64,000 bases of DNA, taken from positions 1,550,001-1,614,000 of the forward strand of contig NZ_CP045417.1 in assembly GCF_009363755.1 (NCBI RefSeq), read 5' to 3'. The notes under the pieces were generated by a model. That model ran no database searches and was not told the origin of the DNA. It worked only from the letters and a program-made list of their open reading frames with translations. This document shows, one piece after another, positions 19,537-47,099 of the stretch; positions within the stretch are counted from its first letter, which is position 1; each line of letters starts with the position of its first letter. This DNA comes from Halomonas sp. THAF5a. GTDB taxonomy: Bacteria; Pseudomonadota; Gammaproteobacteria; Pseudomonadales; Halomonadaceae. Made by a program: the position numbers and the translations under genes.

Positions 19537-19645
19537 CCGGGGGCAGGTCGGCGCGAGGGTCTTTTGCCAAGGATGGCAAAAGTAGCTTACAGGGAGGTAT
19601 TCACAGCGCCCTCGCCATGGTCCGACACGTTGGGCCTGCCGCCGG
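19537..19645 (+). repeat. Structured repeat copy A with two ANGGAN hairpins, between ureC and ureE
   Basis: The outer arms are CCGGGGGCAGG (19537-19547) and CCTGCCGCCGG (19635-19645), 10 of 11 paired, with a second enclosing stem CGAGGG/CCCTCG at 19554-19559 and 19609-19614. Inside are hairpin 1 (19561-19582, 8-bp stem, loop AAGGAT) and hairpin 2 (19588-19599, 3-bp stem, loop AGGGAG within TTACAGGGAGGT). It then carries TTCACAGCGCC, a stretch shared with the copies at 28.8 and 47.0 kb. It ends 24 nt before ureE and is in sense orientation. Confidence 0.75.
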
Positions 19646-19669
19646 AACAGCCGCGAATACCTTCCAGAG

Positions 19670-20215
19670 ATGATGCCAATGCTGAGATTGATCGAACGCC
19701 TGGGGCCCATCGAGGCGAGCCGGGCGAGTGACACCCTGACGCTGCCCTTCGAGCAGCGCGTGCTGGGCCGGCTCAAGGCCGACAGCGATGCCGGGCGCGC
19801 CCTGGGCCTGTTCCTCGACCGCGGCCCGGTGCTGCGCGACGGCGAGGGGCTGCGCGCCGAGGGGGGCGAGGTGGTGCGCATCCGCGCCGCCGTGGAGCCG
19901 GTGGTGACCGCCCGGGTCGAGGCGGGTCTGCCCCTGGCGCGGCTCGCCTATCACCTGGGCAACCGCCACGTGCAGCTGGCGCTGGGCGAGGATGAAGAGG
20001 GCGGCTACGTCCGCTTCCCGCCGGATCACGTCCTCGAGGCCCTGGCCGAGCGCCTGGGCGCGCGGCTCGAGCACCACGACGCCCCCTTCGATCCCGAGCC
20101 GGGGGCCTATTCCCACACGGCGTCCCACATCCATGGCGAGTCCGCGGATGGCGAGGGCCATGAACATCATCATCACGGCCATGCCCATGACAATGCCCAT
20201 GACCCTGCCCACTGA
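19670..20215 (+). CDS. ureE: Urease accessory nickel metallochaperone UreE
   Basis: UreE delivers nickel to the UreDFG-urease complex. The protein (up to 181 residues) has the N-terminal peptide-binding-like domain, the metal-binding domain with the LAYHLGNRHVQLAL stretch carrying the conserved histidine, and a long histidine-rich tail (from about residue 147, including EHHHHGHAHD) that can store extra nickel. Three in-frame ATGs lie close together (19670, 19673, 19679); the third begins MLRLIERLG and may be the real start, as the ribosome site is weak. Repeat copy A ends 24 nt upstream, so translation of ureE may be subject to RNA structure. Confidence 0.93.
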   Translation: MMPMLRLIERLGPIEASRASDTLTLPFEQRVLGRLKADSDAGRALGLFLDRGPVLRDGEGLRAEGGEVVRIRAAVEPVVTARVEAGLPLARLAYHLGNRHVQLALGEDEEGGYVRFPPDHVLEALAERLGARLEHHDAPFDPEPGAYSHTASHIHGESADGEGHEHHHHGHAHDNAHDPAH

Positions 20216-20927
20216 GGAGCCGACGACGGCGGGCCGGGACGATCTCGCGCTGCTGGGGCTGCTGCAGCTGGTCAGTCCCGCGCTGCCCATCGGCGCCTTC
20301 GCCTTCTCCCAGGGGCTCGAGAGCGCCTTCGAGCTGGGCTGGGTGACCGACGAGGCGAGCCTCGGCGACTGGCTCGAGGGCGTGCTCGAGGACGGCCTGA
20401 CCCGCTGTGAGCTGCCGGCGCTGGTGCGCCTGGCCCGGGCCTGGCAGGCCGCGGACAGCGAGGCCGTCGCCGAGTGGGACGCCTGGCTCGCCGCTACCCG
20501 AGAGACCGCCGAGCTCGCCGCCGAGGATCGCCGTCTGGGCGCCGCCCTGGTGCGCCTGCTGGGAAGCCTTGCGCTGCTGCCCGGTGGCGCCACCAGTACC
20601 ACCGGCGAGGCCCCGGCGCTGCCCGGCGAGCCCGGCTACGTGACCGTCTTCGCCTGGGCGGCCCACGTGCGCGGCGTGCCGGTGCGTCAGGCGATGCTGG
20701 GCTTCGCCTGGGCCTGGCTGGAAAACCAGCTGGCGGTGGCCTGCAAGGCCCTGCCGCTTGGCCATACCGCGGCCCAGCGGCTGGTGGAGCGGCTGCGCCC
20801 GGCGCTGGTGGCGGCGGTGGACGAGGCCCTGACGCTCGAGGACGACGCCCTCGGGCCGGTGCTGCCGGGCCTGGCGCTGGCCAGCGCCCTGCACGAGACC
20901 CAATATTCACGACTGTTCAGAAGTTAG
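20199..20927 (+). CDS. ureF: Urease accessory protein UreF
   Basis: UreF binds UreD on urease and acts as the activator of the UreG GTPase during nickel insertion. The core LLQLVSPALPIGAFAFSQGLE at about residue 18 is the family hallmark, and the C-terminal CKALPLGHTAAQRL is also conserved. Several in-frame ATGs (20181, 20187, 20193, 20199) overlap the His-rich 3' end of ureE; 20199 gives 242 residues and is taken here, but the exact start is uncertain. The overlap of about 17 nt suggests translational coupling to ureE. A 242-nt gap with a large structured repeat follows. Confidence 0.92.
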   Translation: MTLPTEEPTTAGRDDLALLGLLQLVSPALPIGAFAFSQGLESAFELGWVTDEASLGDWLEGVLEDGLTRCELPALVRLARAWQAADSEAVAEWDAWLAATRETAELAAEDRRLGAALVRLLGSLALLPGGATSTTGEAPALPGEPGYVTVFAWAAHVRGVPVRQAMLGFAWAWLENQLAVACKALPLGHTAAQRLVERLRPALVAAVDEALTLEDDALGPVLPGLALASALHETQYSRLFRS

Positions 20928-20975
20928 CGCCAAATAAGGCCGGGCGATCACTGGCGAATCCATCTCGCGCGGCCG

Positions 20976-21085
20976 CTGGCATCCCGGCCGAAGCGACGCG
21001 GTCGATCTTCAGGGAAGAAGATCGAGGAAAGCCGGCACAGGGAGGTGCTGTCTTTCCGACCGCGGGAGTCCGGCCGGGATGCCAG
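20976..21085 (+). repeat. Structured repeat copy B with two ANGGAN hairpins, between ureF and ureG
   Basis: The arms CTGGCATCCCGGCCG (20976-20990) and its perfect inverse (21071-21085) give a 15-bp outer stem, with a second stem CGCGGTCG/CGACCGCG inside. Hairpin 1 (21002-21025) has a 9-bp stem and loop AGGGAA. Hairpin 2 (21033-21050) has a 6-bp stem with one G-U pair and loop AGGGAG. This is the most divergent copy in sequence but keeps the same architecture and GCACAGGGAGGT. It is in sense orientation and ends 84 nt before ureG. Confidence 0.75.
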
Positions 21086-21169
21086 GGTTTCGGGCGTGTG
21101 GCGTGGTGAGTCCAGTGAGCCGCCCGTGCCGACAAGATAACGACTAAAGAGTGCAAGAGGAAAAACGAC

Positions 21170-21826
21170 ATGACCCATTGCCTGCGTATTGGCGTCGGCG
21201 GCCCGGTAGGCTCCGGCAAGACGGCCCTGCTCAAGCAGCTCTGCCGCGCGCTGCGCGACCACTACGACATCGCCGTGGTGACCAACGACATCTACACCCG
21301 CGAGGATGCCGATTTCCTGCTCAAGCACGAGGCGCTGCCGGCGGACCGGATCCTGGGCGTGGAGACCGGCGGCTGCCCGCACACGGCGATCCGCGAGGAC
21401 GCCTCCATGAACCTCGCGGCCATCGACGAGCTGCAGGCGCGCCATCCGGGCCTCGAGCTGGTGCTGGTGGAGTCAGGGGGCGACAACCTGTCGGCCACCT
21501 TCAGCCCGGAGCTTTCCGATCTGACCCTCTACGTCATCGACGTCTCCGCCGGCGACAAGATCCCGCGCAAGGGCGGGCCCGGTATCACCAAGTCGGATCT
21601 GTTGATCATCAACAAGATCGATATCGCCGAACAGGTTCACGCCTCCCTGGCGGTCATGGAGCGCGACTCGCGCACGATGCGCGGTGAGCGCCCCTTCGTC
21701 TTCGCCAACCTCTACGACGGCATCGGCCTGGAGGAGATCATCGCCTTCATCCTCGACCGCGGCATGCTGCCCGAGCGGCGCTCCAGCGTCGCGGCACCGA
21801 GCGGGCAGGACGCTGCCCGCGCCTGA
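21170..21826 (+). CDS. ureG: Urease accessory GTPase UreG
   Basis: UreG is the SIMIBI-class GTPase whose hydrolysis drives nickel transfer into urease. The 218-residue protein has the P-loop GGPVGSGKT (10-18), the [12 protein letters not shown] stretch, the [15 protein letters not shown] block with the nickel-binding Cys-Pro-His motif, and the NKIDIAEQV guanine-specificity region. An AAGAGG lies about 9 nt before the ATG. It is separated from ureF by repeat copy B, unlike the tight junctions in the rest of the cluster. Confidence 0.97.
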
Positions 21827-21872
21827 CCCCCATTCACTTGCCACTGACCCGCCACTCCCTGGAGACCCGTCC

Positions 21873-22091
21873 ATGATCTTGCGCATTTCCCGCCCCCTTG
21901 TCGCCCTTTCCGCGAGCCTGCTCGCGTCCCCGCTGGCCCTGGCCCACTCGGGCCATGGCGCCCCCGACGTCCATGCCCACACCGGCAGCCCGGCGATGCT
22001 GGCGGTACTGGCGATCAGTGCCCTGGGGCTCGCCGCCCTGGTGCCCCTGGCGCGCCTGGTGCGACGTCGCCGGCGATACCGCCAGGGCTGA
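21873..22091 (+). CDS. Small His-containing membrane protein, HupE/UreJ-like N-terminus
   Basis: This 72-residue protein follows ureG by 46 nt and is preceded by CTGGAGACCC. It has a signal peptide (PLVALSASLLASPLALA), then HSGHGAPDVHAHTGS, one membrane span (AMLAVLAISALGLAALVPLA) and an Arg-rich tail. HupE/UreJ nickel permeases also begin their mature part with a His-x-x-His-type motif after the signal, but they are about 190 residues with six spans. The role is unknown; a nickel-binding accessory of urease is a guess from position and histidines. It could also be a remnant of a longer gene. Confidence 0.6.
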   Translation: MILRISRPLVALSASLLASPLALAHSGHGAPDVHAHTGSPAMLAVLAISALGLAALVPLARLVRRRRRYRQG

Positions 22092-22114
22092 ACAGCGCCT
22101 CTCGCCCTCTGCTG

Positions 22115-22134
22115 CGCCCGGCCCTGGCCGGGCG
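22115..22134 (+). terminator. Possible hairpin terminator ending the urease cluster
   Basis: CGCCCGGCC and GGCCGGGCG form a 9-bp stem around CT, 23 nt after the small membrane protein gene. It has only TCGTGCGTTA downstream, so the T-tract is poor. Confidence 0.45.
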
Positions 22135-22281
22135 TCGTGCGTTATCGGCGGCCGCTCGCTATGCTGGCGGACCGTCCTCCCGTTGTCGGCAGGGCGGGTG
22201 AGGGTGCCAGGCGGGAGGACGGCGCCCGGGAAACCGCGAGGGGGAGACGCAGTGACAGACCTAGGGAGAGGGAGGCGCCGC

Positions 22282-23712
22282 ATGTGGCCCTGGCTCGTGA
22301 CGGCGCTGCTGGTGGCCTGGCTGGTCATGGGTGCCTGGCAGCGCTACAAGCCGCTGCCGGAGGGGCTGGGTCAGGCCTTTCCGGCGCGCTCCGCGGAGGG
22401 GGTGCGTTTTCTCGCCGACGAGACCTGGTATTCCCCGTCCGGCGAGCGACATGCCCGACGCCGGATCTTCGACGAGGTCATGGCGCTGATCGGTCAGGCC
22501 GAGCGCCTGGTGGTGCTGGACATGTTCCTGTTCAACGACTTCGCCGGCGCCGCCGATGGCCAGGACTTCCGGCCGCTGTCGGCGGAGCTCACCCAGGCCC
22601 TGATCGAGCGCAAGGCCGAGCGTCCGAGGCTCGAGGCCGTGGTCATCACCGACCCGCTCAATACCCTCTACGGCGGCCTCGAGCCGGCACACCTCGAGCG
22701 GTTGCGCGCGGCCGGCATCCGGGTGGTGGTGACGGATCTGACGCGACTGCGCGCCTCCAACCCGCTCTGGTCGGGGGCCTGGCACCTGGGGCCGCGCTGG
22801 CTCGGGAATCATCACCAGGCTGGCTGGCTGCCCAATCCCCTGGGCCCGGGGCAGGTGTCGCTGCGCAGCTACCTGACCCTGCTCAACTTCAACGCCAACC
22901 ATCGCAAGACCCTGGTCGTCGATCGGGGCGATGACTGGGCGGGGCTGGTCACCTCGGCCAATCCCCACGATGCCAGCAGTCGGCACGGCAACGTGGCGCT
23001 GCGCTTCGAGGGGGCGGCCGCGCTGGACCTGCTGGCCTCGGAGCGTCCCGTGGCGAGCTGGTCGGGGGTGCGCCTGCCGGGGCCCGTGGCACTGGCCGCC
23101 CCGCCGGCCCCGGTCGAGGGGGCGAGGCTGCAGGTGCTCACCGAGGGCGGTATCCGCGCGGCGTTGCTGGCGGCCATCGAGGCCAGTGAGCCGGGCGACC
23201 GGCTGGATATCGCCGTCTTCTACCTGTCGCACCGGGCGCTGATCGAGGCCCTGGTGGCGGCCCAGCGGCGCGGCGTGGCGCTGCGGGTCCTGCTCGACCC
23301 CAATCGCGATGCCTTCGGGATCGAGAAGGGCGGCATCCCCAATCGCCCGGTGGCGCGGGAGCTACATGCCGCCGGGGTGCCGGTGCGCTGGTGCGCCACC
23401 GAGGGCGAGCAGTGCCACAGCAAGCTGCTGCTGCGTCGACCCGCCGCGGCGGAGGGCGAGGCCGAGCTGATCCTGGGCTCGGCCAACTTCACGCGGCGCA
23501 ACCTCGATGACCTGAACCTGGAGACCAGCGTGCGTCTGGTGGGGCCCGCCGAGACCCCGGCCCTGCACGACGCGGCGGCCTTCTTTTCGCGTCGCTGGCA
23601 TTCGACCCCGCAGCGGATCACCAGCGAGCCCTTCGCGGCCCATGATGACGCCTCGGCCTGGCAGCGGTGGCGCTATCGGATCATGGAGGCCACCGGGCTC
23701 TCCACCTTCTGA
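22282..23712 (+). CDS. Phospholipase D / cardiolipin synthase-like protein
   Basis: This is a membrane-anchored PLD-superfamily protein of 476 residues. One N-terminal span (WLVTALLVAWLVMGAW) precedes two PLD domains. The first HKD-like motif is NHRKTLVVD (H207, K209), the second CHSKLLL (H379, K381) followed by GSANFTRRNL. Both are needed to form one active site that exchanges or hydrolyses phosphodiesters, usually phospholipids. Cardiolipin synthesis is one possibility, but the spacing is not that of ClsA and the substrate is open. An in-frame GTG at 22252 with its own purine-rich ribosome site is an alternative start. Confidence 0.82.
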   Translation: MWPWLVTALLVAWLVMGAWQRYKPLPEGLGQAFPARSAEGVRFLADETWYSPSGERHARRRIFDEVMALIGQAERLVVLDMFLFNDFAGAADGQDFRPLSAELTQALIERKAERPRLEAVVITDPLNTLYGGLEPAHLERLRAAGIRVVVTDLTRLRASNPLWSGAWHLGPRWLGNHHQAGWLPNPLGPGQVSLRSYLTLLNFNANHRKTLVVDRGDDWAGLVTSANPHDASSRHGNVALRFEGAAALDLLASERPVASWSGVRLPGPVALAAPPAPVEGARLQVLTEGGIRAALLAAIEASEPGDRLDIAVFYLSHRALIEALVAAQRRGVALRVLLDPNRDAFGIEKGGIPNRPVARELHAAGVPVRWCATEGEQCHSKLLLRRPAAAEGEAELILGSANFTRRNLDDLNLETSVRLVGPAETPALHDAAAFFSRRWHSTPQRITSEPFAAHDDASAWQRWRYRIMEATGLSTF

Positions 23713-23762
23713 GCCGGGTGCTCGTCGAGTCGTCTCGGTTGCTGCCCACGCCGGCGAGGGCG

Positions 23763-24692
23763 TCAGTCGACGTGGGTCACCGCCTGGCGGCGCGGATCGA
23801 TGTACCAGGCGAGGCCGAGGCGGGCGTTGCGCTCCAGTTCGGCGATCACCTGGGCCCCGAGCAGCAGGATGATGGCCCCCACCTCCAGGCTCAGCAGCAC
23901 CACGACCAGGGTCGCCAGGGAGCCGTAGACCGCGTTGACCAGCGAGAGGTTGGCGAAGTAGAAGACCAGCAGAAAGCGCACGCCCTCCCACAGCAGGGCG
24001 GCGACGAAGCCGCCCACCACCGCCCGGCGAAGAGCGATCCTCACCACCGGCAGCACCTTGTAGATGGCGCTGAACAGCAGGAAGACGCCAAGGAAGCTGG
24101 TCAGGTTGAGCATCGGCTCGGAGAGCCCGGCCAGCGGCAGGTCACGTTCGAACAGCGTCAGCCAGAGCGCATTCATCGAGCTGGCGAGGCTGACCAGCAG
24201 GGTCAGGGCGAGCAGGCCCGCCCCGAGCACCAGCATGAAGGCGTAGGGCAGTGCCACCGAGACCAGGACGTGGCGATGGGGGTGGTGGGTGTCGGGGGCG
24301 TGGAAGATGATCGCCAGGGCATCCTCGAGCATGCGAAAGGCGAAGGAGCTGAACAGCAGCAGCACCGGGAAGCCCAGGATGCCGATCACGTCGCGGGAGT
24401 CGAGCAGGGTGCGCACGGCGTCGAGCAGCACCTCCGCGTGGGCGGGGGCCAAGTGGCGCGCCTGGATCGAGAGGACCTCGAGCAGGTGCTGCTGGTCCAC
24501 CACGCCGGCCAGCAGCACGACCATCAGCGCGAACAGCGGCACGATCGAGAGCAGGATGTTATAGCCGACCCCGCCGGCCAGCAGGATGCCGCGGTTGCGC
24601 AGGAAGGCGCACAGCACCCGCCACAGGAACGCCAGCGTCAGCGGCAGCAGGGCGAGGAACGACTGTCGAGGGGCTTCGCGGGGAGACGTCAT
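23763..24692 (-). CDS. YihY/UPF0761-family inner-membrane protein
   Basis: This is a polytopic membrane protein of 309 residues with about six spans in the pattern of the YihY/BrkB family. The near-N-terminal GGVGYNILLSIVPLFALMVVL corresponds to the conserved A-(L/Y)-x-x-x-L-S-x-x-P-L motif, and the C-terminal LVNAVYGSLATLVVVLLSLEVG is also typical. Its biochemical function is not established. It is convergent with the PLD-like gene upstream (51-nt gap) and divergent from the yqhA-like gene. It stands alone. Confidence 0.85.
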   Translation of the reverse strand: MTSPREAPRQSFLALLPLTLAFLWRVLCAFLRNRGILLAGGVGYNILLSIVPLFALMVVLLAGVVDQQHLLEVLSIQARHLAPAHAEVLLDAVRTLLDSRDVIGILGFPVLLLFSSFAFRMLEDALAIIFHAPDTHHPHRHVLVSVALPYAFMLVLGAGLLALTLLVSLASSMNALWLTLFERDLPLAGLSEPMLNLTSFLGVFLLFSAIYKVLPVVRIALRRAVVGGFVAALLWEGVRFLLVFYFANLSLVNAVYGSLATLVVVLLSLEVGAIILLLGAQVIAELERNARLGLAWYIDPRRQAVTHVD

Positions 24693-24804
24693 CGGGGCTG
24701 CCGTGCCAGTATGCCTGGGTCATCATAGGCGTATCCTGCTCGCCCGGGTCAACTGTTCGGCGGCGGTCGCCTCGGCCGCCCCCGTCATCGAGGAGACACA
24801 CGTC

Positions 24805-25359
24805 ATGGAATCGTCACACCGCCCCGATCCCCGTCCCGCGAGGCGTCGCGGCCAGCTCGAGCGACGCTTCGAGGCCTTCCTGTGGCACTCGCGCCTGATG
24901 GTGCTGATGGCCGTGATCCCCGCGCTGCTGGGGGCGCTGGCGCTGTTCGTCATCGCCAGCCTGGACGTGCTCTCGGTCCTCGTCGATACCTGGCGGCACT
25001 ACCTCGGCGGCGGCGACGACATTCACAAGACCGTGGTCACCGACATCATCGTGGCCGTGGACATCTATCTGATCGCCCTGGTGCTGATGATCTTCGCGCT
25101 GGGGGTCTACAAGCTCTTCGTCTCGCGCATCGAGCCCGCCGAGCAACGCGGCACCCATCATCCCTTCGACGTCGGCTCCCTCGACCAGCTCAAGGACAAG
25201 ATCGCCCGGGTGGTGATCCTCGCCGTGATCATCGAGTTCTTCCGCGCCGTGGTCGGCATCAGCTTCGACACCCCGCTGGATGCCATCTATCTCGCGCTCT
25301 CGGTGCTGGCGCTGGCGCTGGCGCTCTACCTGATGGCGCTGGCGCACAAGCAGGAGTGA
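24805..25359 (+). CDS. YqhA/UPF0114-family membrane protein
   Basis: This 184-residue inner-membrane protein belongs to the UPF0114 (YqhA) family, whose function is unknown. Three to four spans are visible: LMVLMAVIPALLGALALFVIA, DIIVAVDIYLIALVLMIFALG and a C-terminal hydrophobic stretch. The segment YKLFVSRIEPAEQRG is conserved in the family. A GAGGAGA ribosome site precedes the ATG. The frame remains open upstream, but that stretch covers the divergent promoter region. Confidence 0.83.
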   Translation: MESSHRPDPRPARRRGQLERRFEAFLWHSRLMVLMAVIPALLGALALFVIASLDVLSVLVDTWRHYLGGGDDIHKTVVTDIIVAVDIYLIALVLMIFALGVYKLFVSRIEPAEQRGTHHPFDVGSLDQLKDKIARVVILAVIIEFFRAVVGISFDTPLDAIYLALSVLALALALYLMALAHKQE

Positions 25360-25474
25360 CGCCGGCGCGGAGCGCCCCGGGCCGACGGCGTGGCAAGTCG
25401 TCGGCGGCCCGCGCATAATGCGCGCTTTCGGCGCCGTTCCGGCGGCCGAGCCATTCCCGTGACAGCGAGACAGC

Positions 25475-26149
25475 ATGGCCAAATTCGAAGAGATCGGCAT
25501 CGCCAGCATTCCCGGCCAGGGCACCCAGCTGCGCCTGCTCCAGCGCCACGACGAGTTCTCCATCCGCATCGTCGGCGCGCCCGGCGACCTGATGAACACG
25601 CGTCTGCACGGCTCAGAGGACGCCCTGGGGGAGCTCGCCTGCCGGGGTATCGCCGATCGCCCTGGGGCGCGCGTGCTGGTCGGCGGTCTCGGCATGGGGT
25701 TTACCCTGGCCGCCGCCCTGGCGGCGCTCGGTGAGGATGCCGAGGTCGTCGTCGCCGAGCTCGTGCCCGGCGTCGTGGAGTGGAATCGCGGCCCGCTCGG
25801 GGCGGCCGCCGGTCGCCCCCTCGACGATCCCCGGGCCCGGGTCAGCCTGGGCGACGTGGGCGAGCTGCTGCGCGCCGAGCCCGGCGGCTTCGACGCCATC
25901 ATGCTCGACGTGGACAACGGGCCCGAGGGGCTGACGCGCCGTGAGAACGACTGGCTCTACTCCCCCCAGGGGCTCGCCGCGGCCCGGCGGGCGCTTCGCC
26001 CCGACGGGGTGCTGGCGATCTGGTCGGCGGGGCCGGATCCGGCCTTCACCGAGCGGCTGCGCCGGCTCGGCCTGCGGGTCGAGGAGGTCACCGTGCGTGC
26101 CCACCGCCCCGGCAAGGGCGCGAAGCACCGGATCTGGCTGGCCAGGTGA
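25475..26149 (+). CDS. Spermidine-synthase-like methyltransferase-fold protein
   Basis: This 224-residue protein has a Rossmann-type core related to spermidine synthases. The glycine-rich loop VLVGGLGMGFTLAAAL (about 67-82) would bind the nucleoside cofactor, the acidic residue follows in VVVAELVPGVVEWN, and MLDVDNGPEG occupies the place of the catalytic-aspartate loop. The N-terminal beta-hairpin domain of true SpeE is missing, so polyamine synthesis is not assured; many such proteins are annotated only by fold. It stands between yqhA-like and arfB with 115 nt and 78 nt gaps. Confidence 0.72.
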   Translation: MAKFEEIGIASIPGQGTQLRLLQRHDEFSIRIVGAPGDLMNTRLHGSEDALGELACRGIADRPGARVLVGGLGMGFTLAAALAALGEDAEVVVAELVPGVVEWNRGPLGAAAGRPLDDPRARVSLGDVGELLRAEPGGFDAIMLDVDNGPEGLTRRENDWLYSPQGLAAARRALRPDGVLAIWSAGPDPAFTERLRRLGLRVEEVTVRAHRPGKGAKHRIWLAR

Positions 26150-26227
26150 TCGCCCCTCACGTCCGGCGTCGATGGCGCCGCCGCCCAGTTCCCCGACCTC
26201 CCATTCACCCAGGCACAGGCAGACAGC

Positions 26228-26641
26228 ATGCTGGAACTCTCTCGACAGGTGACCCTTCCCGACCACGAGATCGAGATGCAGGCGGTGCGCGCCCAGGGCG
26301 CCGGTGGCCAGAACGTCAACAAGGTCGCCACGGCGATCCACCTGCGCTTCGATATCCGCGCCTCCAGCCTGCCCGAGGGCTTCAAGGAGAAGCTGCTGGC
26401 GCTGGGCGACCAGCGCATCACCCGCGACGGTGTGGTGATCATCAAGGCACAGAACCACCGCACCCAGGAGCGCAATCGCAGCGAGGCCCTGGCGCGGCTC
26501 AAGGCGCTGATCAAGAGCGTGATGTACGCCCCGAAGAAGCGCGTCGCCACCCGCCCCAGCAAGGTCGCCAAGCAGCGCCGCCTGGACAGCAAGAAGAAGC
26601 GCGGCCGGCACAAGGCCCTGCGTGGCAAGGTCGAGCCCTGA
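26228..26641 (+). CDS. arfB: Alternative ribosome-rescue factor ArfB (peptidyl-tRNA hydrolase)
   Basis: ArfB (YaeJ) frees ribosomes stalled at mRNA 3' ends by hydrolysing peptidyl-tRNA. The 137-residue protein has the catalytic GGQ at 26-28 (RAQGAGGQNVNKV) and the basic C-terminal tail (KVAKQRRLDSKKKRGRHK) that plugs the empty mRNA channel. Both features separate it from true release factors, which are much longer. The length matches E. coli ArfB. Confidence 0.94.
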   Translation: MLELSRQVTLPDHEIEMQAVRAQGAGGQNVNKVATAIHLRFDIRASSLPEGFKEKLLALGDQRITRDGVVIIKAQNHRTQERNRSEALARLKALIKSVMYAPKKRVATRPSKVAKQRRLDSKKKRGRHKALRGKVEP

Positions 26642-26756
26642 GGGGGAGGGGACGGGTGGCGACCCCTCGCCGGACGTGTATGCTGGAAGACGAGACCACG
26701 ATGGCCGGCCAATCCCGGCCGGTGACCGACACCCAACCATGCAGGGGGACTCGCCG

Positions 26757-27785: not shown

Positions 27786-27814
27786 CCGTCGGGACGCCAT
27801 GTCCTGTCCCGTCC

Positions 27815-27839
27815 AACGGCGAGCCTTTGGCTCGCCGTT
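27815..27839 (+). terminator. Intrinsic terminator after the coiled-coil gene
   Basis: AACGGCGAGCC and GGCTCGCCGTT form an 11-bp stem with a TTT loop, followed by TTCGTT. It lies 30 nt after the stop codon. Confidence 0.8.
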
Positions 27840-27984: not shown

Positions 27985-28788
27985 GTGATCGAAGGGGTCA
28001 AGCATATCGTCGCCGTGGCATCCGGCAAGGGAGGCGTGGGCAAGTCCACCGTCACCGTCAACCTGGCGCTGGCCATGGCCGCCGAGGGCTATCGAGTCGG
28101 CGTCCTGGATGCCGATATCTACGGGCCCAGCCAGGCCCAGATGCTCGGGGTGGGCGAGGGCGTGCGTCCCCAGTCCGCGGGCGAGAACCGCTTCCGGCCG
28201 CTCGAGGCCCACGGCATCCAGGCCATGTCCATGGCCTTCCTGGCCGATGTCCGCGAGCCCATGGTGTGGCGTGGGCCGATGGTGGCCGGGGCCTTCCAGC
28301 AGATGCTCACCCAGACGGCCTGGGACGACCTGGACTACCTGTTCATCGACATGCCGCCGGGCACCGGCGACATCCAGCTGACCCTGGCCCAGAAGGTGCC
28401 GGTGGACGGCGCGGTGATCGTGACCACGCCCCAGGACATCGCCCTGCTCGACGCGCGCAAGGGCATCGAGATGTTCCGCAAGGTCAACGTGCCGGTGCTC
28501 GGCGTGGTGGAGAACATGAGCCTGCACACCTGCTCCCAATGCGGCCACAGCGAGCCGATCTTCGGCGCGGGCGGCGGGGAGCGCATCGCCGATGAGTACG
28601 AGACGCGCGTGCTCGGCCGGCTGCCGCTGAGCCTGGCGATCCGTGAGCAGGTCGATGGCGGCCGCCCCACCGTGGTGGCCGAGCCGGAGAGCGAGGTGAC
28701 CGCCACCTTCCGCGGCATGTCCCGCCAGGTGGCCGAACAGGTCGAGGGTCAGGCGCCCGACGGACCGGAGATCTCCTTCGGCGAGTGA
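27985..28788 (+). CDS. Mrp/ApbC-family iron-sulfur cluster carrier ATPase
   Basis: This is a cytosolic P-loop ATPase of the Mrp/NBP35 family that carries Fe-S clusters to target proteins. It starts at GTG with an AAGGAG 6 nt upstream. Walker A is the deviant SGKGGVGKST near residue 14, followed by VLDADIYGPSQ and IDMPPGTGDIQLTL. The cluster-binding pair is CSQC at about residue 175. At 267 residues it lacks the N-terminal MIP18-like (DUF59) domain of E. coli Mrp; there is no room for it upstream. Otherwise the family core is intact. Repeat copy C follows in the gap before dcd. Confidence 0.9.
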   Translation: MIEGVKHIVAVASGKGGVGKSTVTVNLALAMAAEGYRVGVLDADIYGPSQAQMLGVGEGVRPQSAGENRFRPLEAHGIQAMSMAFLADVREPMVWRGPMVAGAFQQMLTQTAWDDLDYLFIDMPPGTGDIQLTLAQKVPVDGAVIVTTPQDIALLDARKGIEMFRKVNVPVLGVVENMSLHTCSQCGHSEPIFGAGGGERIADEYETRVLGRLPLSLAIREQVDGGRPTVVAEPESEVTATFRGMSRQVAEQVEGQAPDGPEISFGE

Positions 28789-28824
28789 CATGCGGGGCTA
28801 CTCAGGTTATGGATAGCGCAGGAC

Positions 28825-28921
28825 GCCGGGGACAAGCCAAAAAGGAGGTCCTACGCCATGGATGGCGTCGGAAGCGCCCAGGGACGGGTTCACAGCGCCT
28901 CCTTGACGGCTTGTCGCCGGC
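28825..28921 (+). repeat. Structured repeat copy C with two ANGGAN hairpins, between mrp and dcd
   Basis: The outer arms GCCGGGGACAAGCC (28825-28838) and GGCTTGTCGCCGGC (28908-28921) pair at 13 of 14 positions, then AGGAGG pairs with CCTCC. Hairpin 1 has stem ACGCC/GGCGT (28853-28868) and loop ATGGAT. Hairpin 2 has stem GCCC/GGGT and loop AGGGAC (28880-28885). The 60-nt core 28843-28902 is about 90% identical to the copy at 47.0 kb. It is in sense orientation, with dcd starting 155 nt further on. Confidence 0.78.
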
Positions 28922-29075
28922 TGGTCTTGAAGCTTGGAGGTATCGGGAAACGCCATGGGAGAGAGGGCTACTCCCGTGACCTTCCCGCCCGGGGCCGCTA
29001 TGATGTGGCCCCGGTTTTTCTGGCGCCGTGGTTTCCCACGGCGCTTTTTCCACCAGACAGCTTCAGGACGTGTCG

Positions 29076-29782: not shown

Positions 29783-29810
29783 TTGAGTTTGCGATAAACC
29801 CTCGTAAACA

Positions 29811-29843: not shown

Positions 29844-29869
29844 CGTGTCTAGCAGACTCGAGGAAGAAT

Positions 29870-39949: not shown

Positions 39950-39982
39950 GAGGGGTCCGTCGAGAAAGGATCATCAAGACGA

Positions 39983-40013
39983 CGGCGCCGGCCCTCCGGG
40001 AAGGCCGGCGCCG
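39983..40013 (-). terminator. Hairpin between phnD and phnC, probable attenuator
   Basis: CGGCGCCGGCC and its inverse make an 11-bp GC stem with a 9-nt loop, 14 nt after the phnD stop. As between urtA and urtB, it probably leaves more receptor mRNA than transporter mRNA. Confidence 0.6.
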
Positions 40014-40027
40014 CTGACTCGCGAGGG

Positions 40028-41029
40028 TTACTGGAGGTTGTCGGGGGTATACTCGACGCCGTTGGCACTCTGGATGGTGCGGATCACCTTCCAGTTGTCC
40101 TGGTAGTTGATGGGGACGAACTTCTCGACGCCCTCGAACTCCTCGCCGAGCTCTGTGCCCGCGAACTCGAAGCTGAAGAAGGCCTCCTCGATCTTCTCGA
40201 CCAGGTCGGGGTGCAGGTTGTGGGCGTAGTTGTAGGAGGTGGTCGGGAAGCTGTCCGACTCGTAGATGATCTTGACGTCCGCCGGGTCGTAGAGGCCGCG
40301 GGCGGCCATGCGATCGACCACCTCGGAGGCCACCGGGGCGGCGTCGTAGTCCTGGGCCACCACGCCGAGCATGGACTGGTCATGGCTGCCGGAGTAGACC
40401 ACCTCGTAGTCCTCGTCGGGCACGATCCCCATCTCGGGGAACAGCGCTCGCGGCGCCTGGTTGCCGGAGTTGGAAGTCGGCGAGGTGTGGGCGACGCGCT
40501 TGCCCTTGAGGTCCTCCATCTCGTCGATGCCCGAATCGACGTGGGTGTAGAGCTGCAGGGTGTAGCCGAAGCGCCCGTCGTCGGAGCCCATCAGCGCGAA
40601 GGGCACCGCGCCCGCCAGGTTGACGGCGAAGGGCGTCGGGCCGGTGGAGAAGCCGGCGATATGCAGGCGACCGCTGCGCATGGCCTCGACCTGGGCCGAG
40701 TTGGACTGCACGGCGAAGAAGCGCACGTCGCGGTCGGTCACCTCCTCGAGGTGCGCGATGAACGGCTGCCAGATGTCGGAGTAGATGGCCGGATCCTCGA
40801 CCGGCGTGTAGGCGAAGATCAGGGTGTCGGGGTTGGCCCACTCGGACTCGTCCGACGGCCGGTCGGCGACCATGTCGCCGTTCTCGTCGCAGTAGATCTC
40901 GGCCAGGGCGCCGCGCTCGCATTCCTCCTGCGCCTGGGCCTGGCTCGCCAGCAGGGCCAGCGGCAACAGCGTGGAGAGGGCGAGGGGGACGAGCGAGCGG
41001 GTTCCGGGTCGAGCGGAAGGGTAGATCAT
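40028..41029 (-). CDS. phnD: Phosphonate-type ABC transporter substrate-binding protein PhnD
   Basis: This is the periplasmic receptor of the transporter, 333 residues. It has a signal peptide (VPLALSTLLPLALLASQAQA) and a PhnD-type fold, shown by FAYTPVEDPAIYSDIWQPF, HTSPTSNSGNQAPRALFPE (the anion-binding Ser/Thr loop) and YSGSHDQSMLGVVAQDYDAAPVAS. An N-terminal insertion of about 30 mostly acidic residues after the signal includes two cysteines (ECERGALAEIYCDE) that may form a disulfide. No pho box was found in the 134-nt divergent region upstream. Confidence 0.92.
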   Translation of the reverse strand: MIYPSARPGTRSLVPLALSTLLPLALLASQAQAQEECERGALAEIYCDENGDMVADRPSDESEWANPDTLIFAYTPVEDPAIYSDIWQPFIAHLEEVTDRDVRFFAVQSNSAQVEAMRSGRLHIAGFSTGPTPFAVNLAGAVPFALMGSDDGRFGYTLQLYTHVDSGIDEMEDLKGKRVAHTSPTSNSGNQAPRALFPEMGIVPDEDYEVVYSGSHDQSMLGVVAQDYDAAPVASEVVDRMAARGLYDPADVKIIYESDSFPTTSYNYAHNLHPDLVEKIEEAFFSFEFAGTELGEEFEGVEKFVPINYQDNWKVIRTIQSANGVEYTPDNLQ

Positions 41030-41163
41030 GGCGTGCCTCACGATTATTGTTTTGAGGATTGTTCTCGGGCATATGGTGTGTTGCATGTTCGGATATCGAC
41101 ATGGCGTGCCGCCGATGATTGATTCCGAATAACCTCCCTCAATCTAGGGTTTGTTACGAAATC

Positions 41164-41751
41164 ATGTCAAACACTTTCCCCTCCGCCGAGGGCGCCCGGC
41201 ACAACCGCTACCTGCTGATGCGCCACGGGCACAGCCAGGCCAACCAGGAGGGGCGGATCATCAGCTCGCCGTCGCTCGGCCTGACGGGGTTCGGCCTCTC
41301 TCCCCGGGGGCGTGCGCAGCTCGACACCCTGCTCGCCGACTGGCGCTGGGCCAGGCCCCAGCGCATCCTTCACTCGGACTTCCTGCGCACCGCCGAGACC
41401 GCCGGGCGCGTCGCGGAGCATTTCGGCCTGTCGCTTGCCGCCGAGCCGCGCCTGCGGGAGCGCCATTTCGGCGCACTCGAGGGGCAGAGCGACGCGCGCT
41501 ATGCCGAGGTCTGGGCCCTCGACGCCCAGGACTCGACCCACCGCCAGGGCGGCGTCGAGGCCGTGGCCGAGGTGGCGGCGCGCATGCGTGCGGTGATCGA
41601 CGCGCTGGAGGCGCGCCACGAGGGCGAGACGATCCTGCTGGTCAGCCACGGCGATCCGTTGCAGATCCTGCTGACCGCCCTCGAGGGACGCGCACTGAGC
41701 CTGCACCGGGAGCGAGAGCCCCTGGCGCCGGCCAGCATCACGGCGCTATAG
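41164..41751 (+). CDS. Histidine phosphatase superfamily protein
   Basis: This is a 195-residue phosphoglycerate-mutase-like phosphatase. The phosphohistidine motif LLMRHGHSQAN is near residue 17 and the second catalytic histidine is in LLVSHGDPLQ; RERHFGALEGQ is the conserved acid-containing loop. The substrate is not predictable (CobC-, GpmB- and SixA-type proteins share this core). It is divergent from phnD and convergent with glpD. The ATG of MSNTFPS is chosen; an earlier in-frame ATG adds 15 poorly conserved residues, and neither has a strong ribosome site. Confidence 0.85.
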   Translation: MSNTFPSAEGARHNRYLLMRHGHSQANQEGRIISSPSLGLTGFGLSPRGRAQLDTLLADWRWARPQRILHSDFLRTAETAGRVAEHFGLSLAAEPRLRERHFGALEGQSDARYAEVWALDAQDSTHRQGGVEAVAEVAARMRAVIDALEARHEGETILLVSHGDPLQILLTALEGRALSLHREREPLAPASITAL

Positions 41752-41784
41752 GCCCCGCGTCGAGCGTGTGCCGCGCGTCGCGGC

Positions 41785-43335
41785 TCAGGCGGAGTGGCGA
41801 GCGTGTGCCGCCGGCGCCGCGGGGTCGGGCGTGGCGCGCGGGGAGGGCGAGGCGCTGGCCTCGAGGTAGTCGCTCAGCCGCTGCCGCTCGGAGTCGGTGA
41901 GGCGCAGGGCCAGCTTGGTGCGCCGCCACAGGATGTCGTCGGCGCTGCGCGCCCACTCCCGCTCGACCAGGTAGTCGACCTCGGCCGCGGTCAGGCCGGC
42001 CCCGAAGGTCTCCCCCAGGTCCGCCCGGGTGGCTCGGCCCTCGAGGAAGTGTCGGCACAGGGTGCCGTAGGTGCGGGCGAAGCGCCGTGCCTGGTGGGCC
42101 TCCAGGAAGGGGTAGTCCTCGCGCAGGCGAGCCGCGAAGGCGGCCTGATCGCCGATCTCGCCGCCCGGCAGGGGCGCCTCGGCGGTCCAGGGTGCGCGCA
42201 TCTCGGGCAGGTGCGGCGTGAGTGCCTCGAGGGCCGCCTCGGCCAGCTTGCGGTAGGTGGTGATCTTGCCCCCGAAGACCGACAGCAGCGGGGCGCCGGT
42301 GGTATCGAGATCGAGCGTGTAGTCGCGGGTCATGGCAGAGGGCTCCGCCGACTCGTCGTCGCACAGCGGTCGCACGCCCGAGAAGGTGCGGATCACCGCC
42401 TCGCGGGAGAGTTGGGTGCGAAAGTGCGCGTTGACCACCGAGAGCAGGTAGTCGATCTCCTCCTCGGTGGCCTCGATCCGGGCCGGATCGCCCTCGTAGC
42501 GGCGGTCGGTGGTGCCGATCAGGCTGAAGTCCTCCTCGTAGGGCAGCACGAAGACGATGCGTCGGTCGCTGTTCTGGAGGATAAAGGCCCGATCGTCGTG
42601 GTTGAGTCGCGGCACGATCAGGTGGCTGCCCTGGATCAGGCGCACGCCATACCGGGAATCGTGACCGACCTGGCGGCGCACCACGCTCTCCACCCAGGGG
42701 CCGGCGGCGTTGACCAGGGTGCGACAGCGCCGGGTGAAGCGCGTGCCGCCATCGACCTCCTCCAGCGTCAGCTCCCAGACCCCGTCGCGCTCCTGGGCCG
42801 CGACGCAGCGGGTGCGCACCAGGATCTCGGCGCCATGATCCCGGGCCTGCACCGCGTTGAGGGCGACCAGGCGGGCATCATCGACCCAGCAGTCCGAGTA
42901 TTCGAAGCCGCGGGTGATGCCGGAAGCGAGTCCCTGGCCAGGGTCCAGCCGAAGGCTCCGGGAGGCGGGCAGCGTCTTGCGCTTGCCCAGGTGGTCGTAG
43001 AGGAACAGTCCCGCGCGCAGCATCCAGGCCGGCCGCAGGTGGGGGCGATGGGGCAGGATGAAGCGCAGGGGCCAGATGATGTGCGGGGCCTTGGTCATCA
43101 GCACTTCGCGCTCGCGAAGGGCCTCGCGCACCAGGCGGTACTCATGGTGTTCGAGGTAGCGCAGTCCGCCGTGGATCAGCTTGCTGCTGGCCGACGAGGT
43201 GGCGCCGGCCAGGTCTCCCTGCTCGCAGAGCCCGACGGTGAGTCCGCGTCCAGCGGCATCGTTGGCGATGCCGACGCCGTTGATGCCGCCGCCGATCACG
43301 TAGAGGTCGAGGACCTCGTCTGGCCTGTCGCTCAT
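41785..43335 (-). CDS. glpD: Aerobic glycerol-3-phosphate dehydrogenase GlpD
   Basis: This membrane-associated FAD enzyme oxidises glycerol 3-phosphate to DHAP and passes electrons to quinone. The 516-residue protein has the FAD-binding LYVIGGGINGVGIANDAAGRG at the N-terminus, SSKLIHGGLRYLEHHEYRLV, VNAAGPWVESV and the FGGKITTYRKLAE block, all as in E. coli GlpD. A Pro/Ala/Ser-rich tail is added. The ATG of MSDRPDEV is chosen. A GlpR-like operator lies 46 nt upstream. A second, different GlpD homologue is encoded at 61.4-63.1 kb. Confidence 0.95.
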   Translation of the reverse strand: MSDRPDEVLDLYVIGGGINGVGIANDAAGRGLTVGLCEQGDLAGATSSASSKLIHGGLRYLEHHEYRLVREALREREVLMTKAPHIIWPLRFILPHRPHLRPAWMLRAGLFLYDHLGKRKTLPASRSLRLDPGQGLASGITRGFEYSDCWVDDARLVALNAVQARDHGAEILVRTRCVAAQERDGVWELTLEEVDGGTRFTRRCRTLVNAAGPWVESVVRRQVGHDSRYGVRLIQGSHLIVPRLNHDDRAFILQNSDRRIVFVLPYEEDFSLIGTTDRRYEGDPARIEATEEEIDYLLSVVNAHFRTQLSREAVIRTFSGVRPLCDDESAEPSAMTRDYTLDLDTTGAPLLSVFGGKITTYRKLAEAALEALTPHLPEMRAPWTAEAPLPGGEIGDQAAFAARLREDYPFLEAHQARRFARTYGTLCRHFLEGRATRADLGETFGAGLTAAEVDYLVEREWARSADDILWRRTKLALRLTDSERQRLSDYLEASASPSPRATPDPAAPAAHARHSA

Positions 43336-43380
43336 GGGGTCTCCCGTCCGCTGCCGGACCGCTGTTGGTGATACACGTCG

Positions 43381-43398
43381 ATGTTCGAAAACGAAAAT
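43381..43398. promoter_or_regulatory. GlpR-like operator upstream of glpD
   Basis: ATGTTCGAAAACGAAAAT matches the E. coli GlpR operator core ATGTTCGWTAWCGAACAT at all but two positions. A further half-site, GCGAACAT, is at 43412-43419. Position and sequence fit repression of glpD by the adjacent GlpR. Confidence 0.75.
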
Positions 43399-43536
43399 AG
43401 ATGAAATCAATGCGAACATCAAGGCGCGCCACATGCTCGCACGCCAACATGGGGTGGCGTAGGCGGTGCGGTCGGTCGGTGGGAAGGCGTGCGAGGCGTG
43501 AGGGCGAGAGGGCCGGGCGGCGCCGATGCGATGCCC

Positions 43537-44295
43537 TCAGGCCAGGTGCAGGGCGACGTCGTGCTGCTTCAGCAGGCGCACGATCGCCTCGGGCGGCTCG
43601 CGATCGGTGAACAGGGCGTCGAGCTGGGCCAGGTTGCCCTGGCGCACCACGGGATTGCGGCGGAACTTGGAGTGGTCGGTGGCCAGGAACACCTGGCGGG
43701 AGTTGCGCAGGATGGCCTGGGCCACCCGTACCTCCTGGTAGTCGAACTCCAGCAGCGAGCCGTCCTCGTCGATGCCGCTGATGCCGATGATGCCGTAGTC
43801 CACCTTGAACTGGTTGATGAAGTCGATGGTGGCCTCGCCGATGATGCCGCCGTCACGCGAGCGCACCTGCCCGCCGGCGATGATCACGTTGAAGTCCTCC
43901 TTGTGCTGGAGGATCGCTGCCACGTTGAGGTTGTTGGTGATCACCTCCAGCCCCTGGTGCTCGAGGAGCGCCTCGGCGATCACCTCGTTGCTGGTGCCGA
44001 TGTTGATGAACAGCGAGGCATGGTCGGGCACGTGGCGGGCAAGCAGCGAGGCGATGCGCTGCTTGGCCTCCAGGTTGAGGGTCTTGCGGGTCGAGTAGGC
44101 GGTGTTGACGGTGCTCGACTCCAGGCCGGCGCCGCCGTGCACGCGTCGGATGCGCCCCTCGTTGGCGAGGGTGTTGAGGTCGCGCCGGATGGTCTGGGGG
44201 GTGACCAAGAAGTGCTCGGTGAGCTGCTCGATGCTGGCATAGCCCTGGCGGCGGACCAGATCGATGATGGCGTCCTGGCGTTGCTGCTGGTTCAT
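43537..44295 (-). CDS. glpR: Glycerol-3-phosphate regulon repressor GlpR (DeoR family)
   Basis: This 252-residue DeoR-family repressor has an N-terminal HTH ([16 protein letters not shown], then [20 protein letters not shown]) and a C-terminal sugar-phosphate-binding domain ([36 protein letters not shown]). The sequence is close to GlpR of E. coli and Pseudomonas. Lying between glpD and the divergent glpK, with matching operators at both, it should repress both until glycerol 3-phosphate appears. Confidence 0.94.
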
Positions 44296-44450
44296 GGTCT
44301 CTCCTTGGCTGGCCCGATTCTATGCCATCGCGGTCCGGGATGCAGGCATGCCCCCCGCGAGCGACGGGCGTCGCATCGGCGCCTGCGGGTGTTCCTTTCC
44401 GGTCTTGGCGCGGCGTCATTTGAGCGCGGTCGCGGGCTGGAGTAGGCTTG

Positions 44451-44468
44451 ATGATCATAATCGAACAT
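44451..44468. promoter_or_regulatory. GlpR-like operator upstream of glpK
   Basis: ATGATCATAATCGAACAT matches the GlpR operator core, with two or three mismatches in the left half and a perfect right half-site (ATCGAACAT). A looser copy, TCGAAAAGCGAAAT, follows at 44474-44487. It lies 55 nt before glpK. Confidence 0.65.
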
Positions 44469-44522
44469 TAGCGTCGAAAAGCGAAATTGGCACGCCGCCA
44501 CCACCACGACAGGATGCTTGCT

Positions 44523-46007
<1,485 letters not shown>

Positions 46008-46067
46008 CCGGTCGTGCCGGGGCAGGCCAACTTGCTGATTCGTCTGAAAAGAAAACGCACGACGGGC

Positions 46068-46095
46068 TTGCATTCCGGATTCGTTTGCGTAGAAT
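46068..46095 (+). promoter_or_regulatory. Sigma-70 promoter of the tRNA-Val pair
   Basis: TTGCAT (46068-46073) and TAGAAT (46090-46095) are separated by 16 nt, 43 nt before the first tRNA. Both boxes are close to consensus, which is unusual among the promoters of this window and fits a stable-RNA operon. Confidence 0.75.
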
Positions 46096-46138
46096 ACGCA
46101 TCCGTTGCCACGGCGAACATACGCCGGTAACGGGGTGA

Positions 46139-46215
46139 AGGACCATAGCTCAGTTGGTTAGAGCGCCACGTTGACATCGTGGAGGTCGGCGGTTCAAATC
46201 CGCCTGGTCCTACCA
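46139..46215 (+). tRNA. tRNA-Val (anticodon GAC), first copy
   Basis: This is a 77-nt tRNA with the CCA end encoded. The acceptor AGGACCA pairs with TGGTCCT; the D-loop contains AGTTGGTTAGA, the anticodon loop TTGACAT (GAC at 46173-46175, reading valine GUC/GUU codons) and the T-loop GGTTCAAATCC. Confidence 0.97.
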
Positions 46216-46234
46216 TCATCGCCCACATCAGTGC

Positions 46235-46311
46235 AGGACCATAGCTCAGTTGGTTAGAGCGCCACGTTGACATCGTGGAGGTCGGCGGTTCAAATCCGCC
46301 TGGTCCTACCA
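46235..46311 (+). tRNA. tRNA-Val (anticodon GAC), second identical copy
   Basis: This 77-nt tRNA is identical to the first copy, which ends 19 nt upstream; the anticodon GAC is at 46269-46271. The two are evidently co-transcribed, with one promoter upstream and one terminator right after. Confidence 0.97.
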
Positions 46312-46320
46312 GATTCGAGA

Positions 46321-46354
46321 ACGCCCCGCAGCCATCCGGCTGCGGGGCGTTTTT
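46321..46354 (+). terminator. Intrinsic terminator of the tRNA-Val operon
   Basis: ACGCCCCGCAGCC and its exact inverse form a 13-bp stem with loop ATCC, directly followed by TTTTC. It begins 10 nt after the second tRNA. Confidence 0.9.
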
Positions 46355-46451
46355 CATGCTGCGCGCTTTTTCGCCGGCGCGTCGTCTCGACGGTCTCGCC
46401 GCGGGGCGGCGCACCCCGCCCGGCGAGGCCGATCGCCTCGCCGGGCAGGCG

Positions 46452-46925
46452 TCACGCCAGGTCGCTCCGTGCAACGAAGACCTCGACCAGCGCCTCGATG
46501 CCCGCACGGTCGGCATCGCTGAAGCGGCTCGGGGTCGGGCTATCGAGGTCCAGCACGCCCCACAGGCGATCCTCGATGACGATCGGCGCCACCAGCTCGG
46601 CGCGGGAGTCCGCGTCGCAGGCGATGTGGTCGGCGACGGCGTGGACGTCGTCGACGCGCTGGGTCTCGCGGCTGCGCGCCGCCGCGCCGCAGACGCCCTT
46701 GGAAAAGGGAATGGGGTGGCAGGCCGGCTTGCCCTGGAAGGGGCCGAGGCAGAGCAGCTCGGGCTCGCGCTGCAGGTAGAAGCCGGCCCAGTTGAGCCCG
46801 GGGATCTCCTGCATGATGAAGGCACAGGTCTGGGCGCTGTTGGTCAGCCAGTCGCGGGTATCGAGCAGCGCGCCGAGCTGGCGGGCGAGCAGGGGGTAGT
46901 CGGGCTGCGGGTGATCCGTTGTCAT
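46452..46925 (-). CDS. Free methionine-(R)-sulfoxide reductase (GAF domain, MsrC/YebR type)
   Basis: This enzyme reduces free Met-(R)-sulfoxide with a cysteine-based mechanism inside a GAF domain. The 157-residue protein has the three functional cysteines in GKPACHPIPFSKGVCGAAA and HIACDADS, equivalent to C84, C94 and C118 of E. coli MsrC, plus the substrate-pocket stretch LNWAGFYLQRE. The ATG of MTTDHP is chosen; the open frame upstream runs into repeat copy D. It lies downstream of metNIQ on the same strand, so methionine uptake and methionine repair are adjacent. Confidence 0.9.
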   Translation of the reverse strand: MTTDHPQPDYPLLARQLGALLDTRDWLTNSAQTCAFIMQEIPGLNWAGFYLQREPELLCLGPFQGKPACHPIPFSKGVCGAAARSRETQRVDDVHAVADHIACDADSRAELVAPIVIEDRLWGVLDLDSPTPSRFSDADRAGIEALVEVFVARSDLA

Positions 46926-47004
46926 GTGGGCTCCTTGAACAGGAAAGGCCGGCGTACCGGCCGGCCTTGTCACGATCTCGATCGGGCTGTGGCTCGAGGC
47001 TGAT

Positions 47005-47099
47005 CCGTCAGCCAGCCTTCGCGGAGGCGCTGTGAACCCGTCCATGGGCGCTACCGGCGCCGTCCCTGGCGCAGGACCTCCTCTTCGGCTAGCTGCCGG
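47005..47099 (-). repeat. Structured repeat copy D with two ANGGAN hairpins, between metQ and the fRMsr gene
   Basis: Read on the minus strand, the outer arms (47099-47077 and 47027-47005) pair at 17 of 23 positions and end in AGGAGG/CCTCC. Hairpin 1 has stem GCGCC/GGCGC and loop AGGGAC. Hairpin 2 has stem GCCC/GGGT and loop ATGGAC, followed by TTCACAGCGCCTCC. The 60-nt core (47082-47023) aligns without gaps to copy C at 28.8 kb. It is in sense orientation for both flanking genes. Confidence 0.78.

Follow-up and report, generated by a model that had tools for sequence, protein, structure and literature searches.

What kind of element places paired hairpins with GGA loops between genes of Halomonas sp. 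THAF5a, and what would those loops serve? The window, i.e. the whole stretch of DNA analysed (64,000 nt; contig NZ_CP045417.1, positions 1,550,001 to 1,614,000), had been described in a sequence-only reading as holding a four-copy dispersed repeat, each copy presenting two small ANGGAN hexaloop hairpins that resemble CsrA/RsmA sites. We conclude that it is probably a non-autonomous dispersing element whose RNA would be a two-site ligand of CsrA. Four copies do exist in the window; however, c1, c3 and c4 form one family, type A, whereas c2 represents a separate family, type B. The element is dispersed, as proposed, with about 60 copies in this genome and strong covariation of the stems.

The genome was searched as one contig of 3,806,748 bases. 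BLAST with c3 returned at least 40 matches (40 of 75 candidates scored), and these 40 places together with c1, c2 being left out, formed the 41-copy covariance model R1. R1 located at least 57 places at E ≤ 4.4e-13, at least 58 at E ≤ 6.2e-8 and at least 68 at E ≤ 1 (150 of 4493 first-look candidates scored); one weak match (L107) scored 30.2 bits, and 56.9 bits over a longer span in the extracted stretch. Standard pairing occupies 94.5% of 1269 cells in the alignment of 41 copies, compared to at most 49.5% when the structure is slid. Double changes occur in 21 of the 31 pairs and fill 127 cells, compared to 30.9 in shuffles. The loops are conserved as the sequence-only reading expected: ANGGAN fits 81 of 82 loops, position 2 being mostly G, and the departing loop, AGAGAT, belongs to a copy that lies antisense to both of its neighbours (L026). 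Past the 102-nt core, the flanks of type A form by eye an outer helix, AGCGAGRGGC / GCCYCGAGCG, which includes a tandem G-A step, and some type A copies, c1 among them, carry an additional small hairpin in the 3' arm (also by eye). Type B, found once in the genome by blastn (c2), places its two ANGGAN hairpins inside a larger palindrome and is devoid of the UUYAC bulge.

The same design extends well beyond the genus. Within the family, R1 matched 80 of 121 genomes, from 15 of 24 genera; within the order it matched 90 of 244, from 48 of 112 genera. Candidate scoring per genome was limited (33 in the family, 16 in the order, 10 in the class, 13 in the phylum), such that these counts and those below are lower bounds that favour the best-scoring copies. 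A second covariance model, R2, was built from 23 sequences across the order. Its parent alignment A5 has 32 rows with mis-registered 8-bp stems, and nine of them were left out of A6 and of R2; R2 leans to hexaloops because the omitted rows include two five-letter copies of L089 and one seven-letter copy of L076. In the class, R2 matched 77 of 369 genomes, from 69 of 272 genera; in the phylum it matched 22 of 299, one of which lies outside the class and has a single match (E 7.5e-5). A DNA-pattern scan of named genomes matched at least 119 stretches; the 80 titles among the matches listed are, by name, presumably all gammaproteobacterial, and the carriers among them include Halomonas, Stenotrophomonas, Xanthomonas, Shewanella, Marinobacter, Microbulbifer, Methylomicrobium, Rheinheimera, Yersinia proxima and others. 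Across the order, the covariation score of A6 is 0.678, compared to 0.197 in shuffled and at most 0.195 in slid versions. Taking the best match of each class genome gave 29 copies from 28 loci; ANGGAN is present in 57 of their 58 loops, and an alignment gap truncates the other. In these copies A, G, G and A are invariant at letters 1, 3, 4 and 5 of both loops; letters 2 and 6 differ among copies, as do the stems. C-G closes all 29 first loops and 28 of the 29 second loops, and T-A the remaining one. The UUYAC bulge is conserved almost like the loops, with exceptions. Among the 79 copies from 50 named loci, hairpin 2 fits ANGGAN in 76; the search pattern favoured such matches, and loop 2 of these loci carries no evidential weight because the pattern fixes it. 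Two named loci have a long insert at the tip of hairpin 1 (L233 5472-5625 and L213 7687-7837), and one contig from the phylum search (G162, C1 94419-95659) holds six R2 matches on one strand at ~227-nt spacing, i.e. a tandem array.

All four window copies were found where the sequence-only reading had placed them, and a hexaloop scan recovered its eight ANGGAN hexaloops exactly. The features are as follows.

19530..19655, plus strand: copy c1, type A, in the ureC-ureE gap; outer ends set by eye
19533-19634, plus strand: core of c1 by covariance model R1, starting 28 nt past the ureC stop codon
19569..19574, plus strand: c1 loop 1, AAGGAT (hexaloop scan, as for all loops below)
19591..19596, plus strand: c1 loop 2, AGGGAG
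20951..21110, plus strand: copy c2, type B, a large palindrome in the ureF-ureG gap; extent set by matches in relatives
21011..21016, plus strand: c2 loop 1, AGGGAA
21039..21044, plus strand: c2 loop 2, AGGGAG
28822..28923, plus strand: copy c3, type A, 115.2 bits
28858..28863, plus strand: c3 loop 1, ATGGAT
28880..28885, plus strand: c3 loop 2, AGGGAC
28989..29014, plus strand: terminator-like hairpin 3' of c3, a consensus match only (1 found, shuffle mean 0.3)
47002..47103, minus strand: copy c4, type A, 103.5 bits
47062..47067, minus strand: c4 loop 1, AGGGAC
47040..47045, minus strand: c4 loop 2, ATGGAC
46947..46962, minus strand: terminator-like hairpin 3' of c4, a consensus match only (1 found, shuffle mean 0.1)

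Scanning the 64 kb for ANGGAN hexaloops on stems of at least 3 bp gave 11 on the plus and 8 on the minus strand. Five hexaloop pairs lie less than 40 nt apart; these are the four copies and one pair that re-uses a hairpin of c4. The loop starts are 22 nt apart in c1, c3 and c4 and 28 nt apart in c2. Folded singly against 200 shuffles, the copies yielded z values of -8.5 (c2), -5.7 (c3), -2.3 (c4) and -1.8 (c1). Both hexaloops are present in the fold of c2, and hairpin 1 is present in c1 and c3 with an extra A-U pair within the loop; hairpin 2 forms in c3 and not in c1, and c4 forms neither hairpin. Because the single-copy folds of c1 and c4 are weak, their structure rests on the alignment of the copies.

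Gene calls are our own apart from the genes named by Pfam. Copy c3 follows a ParA/NUBPL-family NTPase gene (27985-28788), 34 nt past its stop, and precedes a dCTP-deaminase-like gene; c4 follows an NlpA-lipoprotein gene (47130-47924), 27 nt past its stop, and precedes a GAF-domain gene; the ureG gene next to c2 belongs to the cobW/UreG family. Copy c3 is framed by a 9-bp direct repeat (28795-28803 and 28965-28973) that implies an insert of ~160 nt; repeats of that length occur in 2 of 59 copies of this genome and may be due to chance. Antisense to ureC, at 17950-18232 on the minus strand, there is a match to the Rfam family 5_ureB_sRNA (RF02514) of 102.1 bits (cut-off 40).

Pairs of C-G-closed ANGGAN hexaloops are what CsrA/RsmE dimers hold. 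The Halomonas genome does contain csrA, in one gene, and residues 1-58 of the protein are nearly identical to solved CsrA-family chains. In the window, in the genome and across the class, ANGGA lies in base-pair-closed hairpin loops that occur in pairs, with departures in other genera. Loop shape and pairing thus support the earlier assignment of the hairpins as candidate paired CsrA/RsmA-type sites. CsrA sites are described as short GGA hairpins, generally paired, in the available text of PMC4383904. Within the class, csrA is found in 72 of 77 genomes that bear the element, compared to 241 of 292 without it (Fisher p 0.019), a modest difference for which genome completeness may account in part.

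Placement was counted on 60 copies of this genome, comprising 59 R1 places and c2, with matches of 23-42 bits excluded; 59 of the 60 are clear of called genes. Among these 59, co-directional gaps hold 37 sense and 16 antisense copies, 5 copies are in convergent gaps and 1 in a divergent gap, and the 178 gaps of at least 80 nt in that DNA comprise 119 between co-directional genes, 22 convergent ones and 37 divergent ones. A gene end lies beside 58 of the 59 intergenic copies, the other being the one in the divergent gap. The median distance past the upstream stop is 30.5 nt for in-line copies (n = 42), and the median distance to the stop of a gene ending towards the copy is 50 nt (n = 21). That all copies lie in sense between co-directional genes, as the sequence-only reading had it, is true of the window; however, genome-wide 37 of the 53 copies in co-directional gaps are sense and 16 are antisense (binomial p 0.0055). 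In 33 other family genomes, one best copy each, 18 are sense, 12 antisense, 2 convergent and 1 divergent. Sense orientation is not supported as a rule, and outside this group orientation is random, an outcome that the sequence-only reading had named as refuting. The named loci, for which 71 of the 79 matches were taken and 20 were without a flank, gave 16 sense, 14 antisense, 19 convergent and 2 divergent (51 usable), and the order and class loci, one best copy each, gave 14 sense, 19 antisense, 5 convergent and 7 divergent (45 usable of 47). Close pairs among the 79 copies are of opposite orientation in 18 of 19 cases, 15 of them divergent.

The urease gaps of relatives were compared in the best 30 of 60 matching genomes among 61, this one included. 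The ureC-ureE gap contains type A in 8 loci and an interrupted type A in one, type B in sense in 6 and in antisense in 2, a type B fragment in one, and neither in 12. The ureF-ureG gap contains type B in sense in 8 loci and in antisense in 3, internal-deletion remnants in 2 and no copy in 17. Since the same gaps are filled, inverted, occupied by a remnant or empty across relatives, the elements come, go and flip in place. In one of the 12 ureC-ureE gaps with neither type (L113) the outer arms of type A alone remain, the middle apparently lost; in another (L126) a type A copy is broken in hairpin 1 by another insert. The copy of Yersinia proxima has an 11-bp direct repeat on its flanks. An origin from a phage or a plasmid was rejected: there was no phage match, and the sole record of the plasmid collection with a c3-like match is NZ_CP040452.1 (Halomonas sp. 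PA16-9, 1.83 Mb), at 3 places.

The preferred reading is that these are repeats resembling miniature inverted-repeat transposable elements, of the YPAL/RU-2 and TwoAYGGAY kind, which settle mostly just 3' of genes and in either orientation. A copy transcribed in sense would usually be part of a 3' untranslated region or an intercistronic stretch. Its RNA is predicted to form two GGA-loop hairpins, mostly C-G-closed ANGGAN and ~22 nt apart, joined through a junction to an outer stem. One CsrA/RsmA dimer could clamp both hairpins, and dozens of copies in this genome would then dress many mRNA tails with CsrA and jointly buffer the free protein. Because antisense copies keep their loops and score like sense copies, we favor an element that itself depends on the loops, most likely by way of CsrA, effects on host mRNAs following from that. 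A more tentative extension is that CsrA is the host partner of a gammaproteobacterial mobile element, needed for its spread or for rendering it harmless. The GGA loops would then be kept either way round, and transcribed copies would constitute, as a by-product, a dispersed sponge for CsrA; it would vary from one sister species to the next, and its insertions would rewire the Csr network.

Several observations weigh against the preferred reading. Antisense and sense copies of this genome do not differ in intactness (median scores of 108.6 and 103.45 bits, p 0.20), which speaks against a simple role in mRNA tails; loop conservation cannot stem from the role of each copy in its mRNA because antisense copies, which are without GGA in the mRNA, stay intact. 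Among the 45 usable order and class loci, 7 placements are divergent. Binding of the RNA by CsrA is a prediction drawn from sequence. One clear exception to co-occurrence is a 98% complete genome (G601) with 8 element matches and no PF02599 hit, and four further carriers without csrA are 67-88% complete. In the named loci, hairpin 1 as aligned is ANGGAN in 61 of 79 copies and keeps GGA in 74; the departures are mostly shorter loops that keep GGA, several of five letters, in addition to two that are badly aligned or replaced and one that is cut off. Loop 1 departs in 5 of the 32 copies of A5, with ATGGGT, which is without GGA, in L087, five letters in two copies of L089 and in L091, and seven letters in the second copy of L076. 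The excess of G-U over A-C expected of structure at the RNA level is 77 to 16 in A2 (about half from one pair) and 9 to 3 in A8; it is absent in A6 (15 to 16). Finally, the 59 copies gave no signal of target-site duplication, the mean longest repeat being 5.64 compared to 5.49 with shuffled partners.

Some of these points fit purely selfish DNA, whose hairpins and fixed loops would be read as single-stranded DNA by a transposase with CsrA uninvolved. REP (repetitive extragenic palindromic) hairpins are recognised by Y1 (RAYT) transposases. The occurrence of both orientations, the inverted close pairs of other genera, the insertion polymorphism of the urease gaps and the intactness of antisense copies are all consistent with such an origin. 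However, Y1_Tnp was absent at E ≤ 1e-3 from this genome, despite its ~60 copies, and from seven genus members with at least 26 scored matches each (G063, G074, G084, G099, G111, G115 and G119), so RAYT/REP mobilisation was rejected for this genus; the domain is present in 42 of 121 family genomes. A transposase unrelated to Y1 may nevertheless act on the element. In addition, selfish DNA leaves unexplained why the fixed letters match a CsrA site, and we regard this account as rather unlikely.

It is quite improbable that the element is a 3' structure of the REP or ERIC (enterobacterial repetitive intergenic consensus) type, which would protect or destabilise the upstream mRNA by blocking RNases while a protein other than CsrA, or a tertiary contact, would account for the loops. 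The tight placement past stop codons agrees with such a role, as do the conservation of the UUYAC bulge, nearly equal to that of the loops, and the terminator-like hairpins 3' of c3 and c4. Location upstream of a terminator is nonetheless proposed for these two alone, because the genome-wide scan detected a terminator 3' of the element in no more than 2 of the 36 sense copies and 1 of the 16 antisense ones. YPAL is reported, in the available text of PMC2229807, to be made together with the upstream gene and possibly to influence the stability of upstream RNA. However, a generic stem needs no GGA in both of its loops, and antisense copies are equally kept. A cis-acting site evolved for CsrA control of particular operons such as urease, which would suit the sense orientation of c1 and c2 in the ure operon and the bias of 37 in 53 in this genome, is very improbable given that the ure gaps of 30 loci hold type A, type B either way round, remnants or nothing, which weakens urease-specific regulation, and that orientation is unbiased in other genera.

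Csr/Rsm output depends on the number of competing CsrA sites. Should each genome indeed transcribe dozens of repeats that are two-site CsrA ligands, as the preferred reading would have it, models that count only small RNAs (sRNAs) of the CsrB/RsmZ type are incomplete, and differences in copy number among sister species would be natural experiments. The reading would also unite three separate entries: a mobile repeat, a structured RNA of unassigned function and, annotated on the opposite strand, an sRNA. It would offer a testable reason for near-fixed loops beside freely changing stems.

Whether the element is already described was left open by the sequence-only reading. Its kind is known, as YPAL/RU-2 and TwoAYGGAY; however, the window copies fall in no described Rfam family, c3 and c4 having no gathering-level match and c1 and c2 nothing at E ≤ 1. 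The CsrA link of the mobile repeat looks new: the open-access literature search found no paper that treats YPAL together with CsrA. Repeats of this kind in Halomonas were likewise not found in that literature, as represented in the search listings. The 168-nt RU-2/YPAL has a printed core, GCGCC-AAGGAT-GGCGC followed by GAGCC-TAC-ATGGAT-GTA-TTTAC-GGC (PMC2759123, Table 1b), that shares with type A the order of the hairpins, the loops and the bulge, as far as the part of that source available shows. The locus of Yersinia proxima (L176) scores 53.8 bits with R2 and, by eye, matches the printed RU-2 ends. YPAL is listed with 101 matches in Y. pestis among stem-loop repeat families (PMC2267715, Table 3, the part available), and is described in the accessible portion of PMC2229807 as having empty and filled sites and as lying at or beside dyad symmetry. 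Both elements are multicopy, intergenic and polymorphic in occupancy. Type A differs from YPAL in its length (~102-126 nt versus ~168 bp), in its terminal sequences, which by eye are GRGGC/GCCYC arms, and in that target duplications of 3-26 bp are reported for YPAL and none is detectable for the copies of this genome. Type A thus works like YPAL, yet is not YPAL proper.

TwoAYGGAY (RF01731, clan CL00106) shares with the element two GGA-loop hairpins on a common stem, and it was proposed to bind CsrA in 2014 (PMC4333381, in the part available). Searched against this genome at E ≤ 10, it gave two matches, both of them element copies, of 23.6 and 19.2 bits (150 of 190 candidates scored), far under its gathering score of 43 bits; that cut-off was passed by one of 20 order-level loci (L077, 43.5 bits). 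Loop position 2 is mostly G in the copies of this genome, in contrast to Y in TwoAYGGAY, and the portions available of the TwoAYGGAY descriptions do not mention a dispersed repeat. The sRNA family Ysr224 (RF02770) matches the Yersinia proxima copy on the minus strand (L176 375-481, 94 bits, cut-off 70) and gives sub-threshold matches over several element copies. Its model apparently derives from a Yersinia repeat copy read on the other strand, its loops being the complement of GGA, and the available text of PMC9029176 counts it among the most frequently annotated bacterial sRNAs.

REP, BIME and REPIN sequences are, like the element, extragenic, palindromic and high in copy number, and inverted pairs are frequent in the element of other genera. 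However, the element would be a branched RNA of ~100 nt, whereas REP-type hairpins measure 20-40 nt (PMC3733652, available portion), and REP is mobilised by RAYT whereas this genome is devoid of a Y1 transposase. The CsrB and RsmX/Y/Z RNAs share with the element repeated GGA hairpins that would titrate CsrA (PMC4383904, same portion as above). They are encoded by a dedicated sRNA gene, whereas the element offers two sites per copy, scattered among genes.

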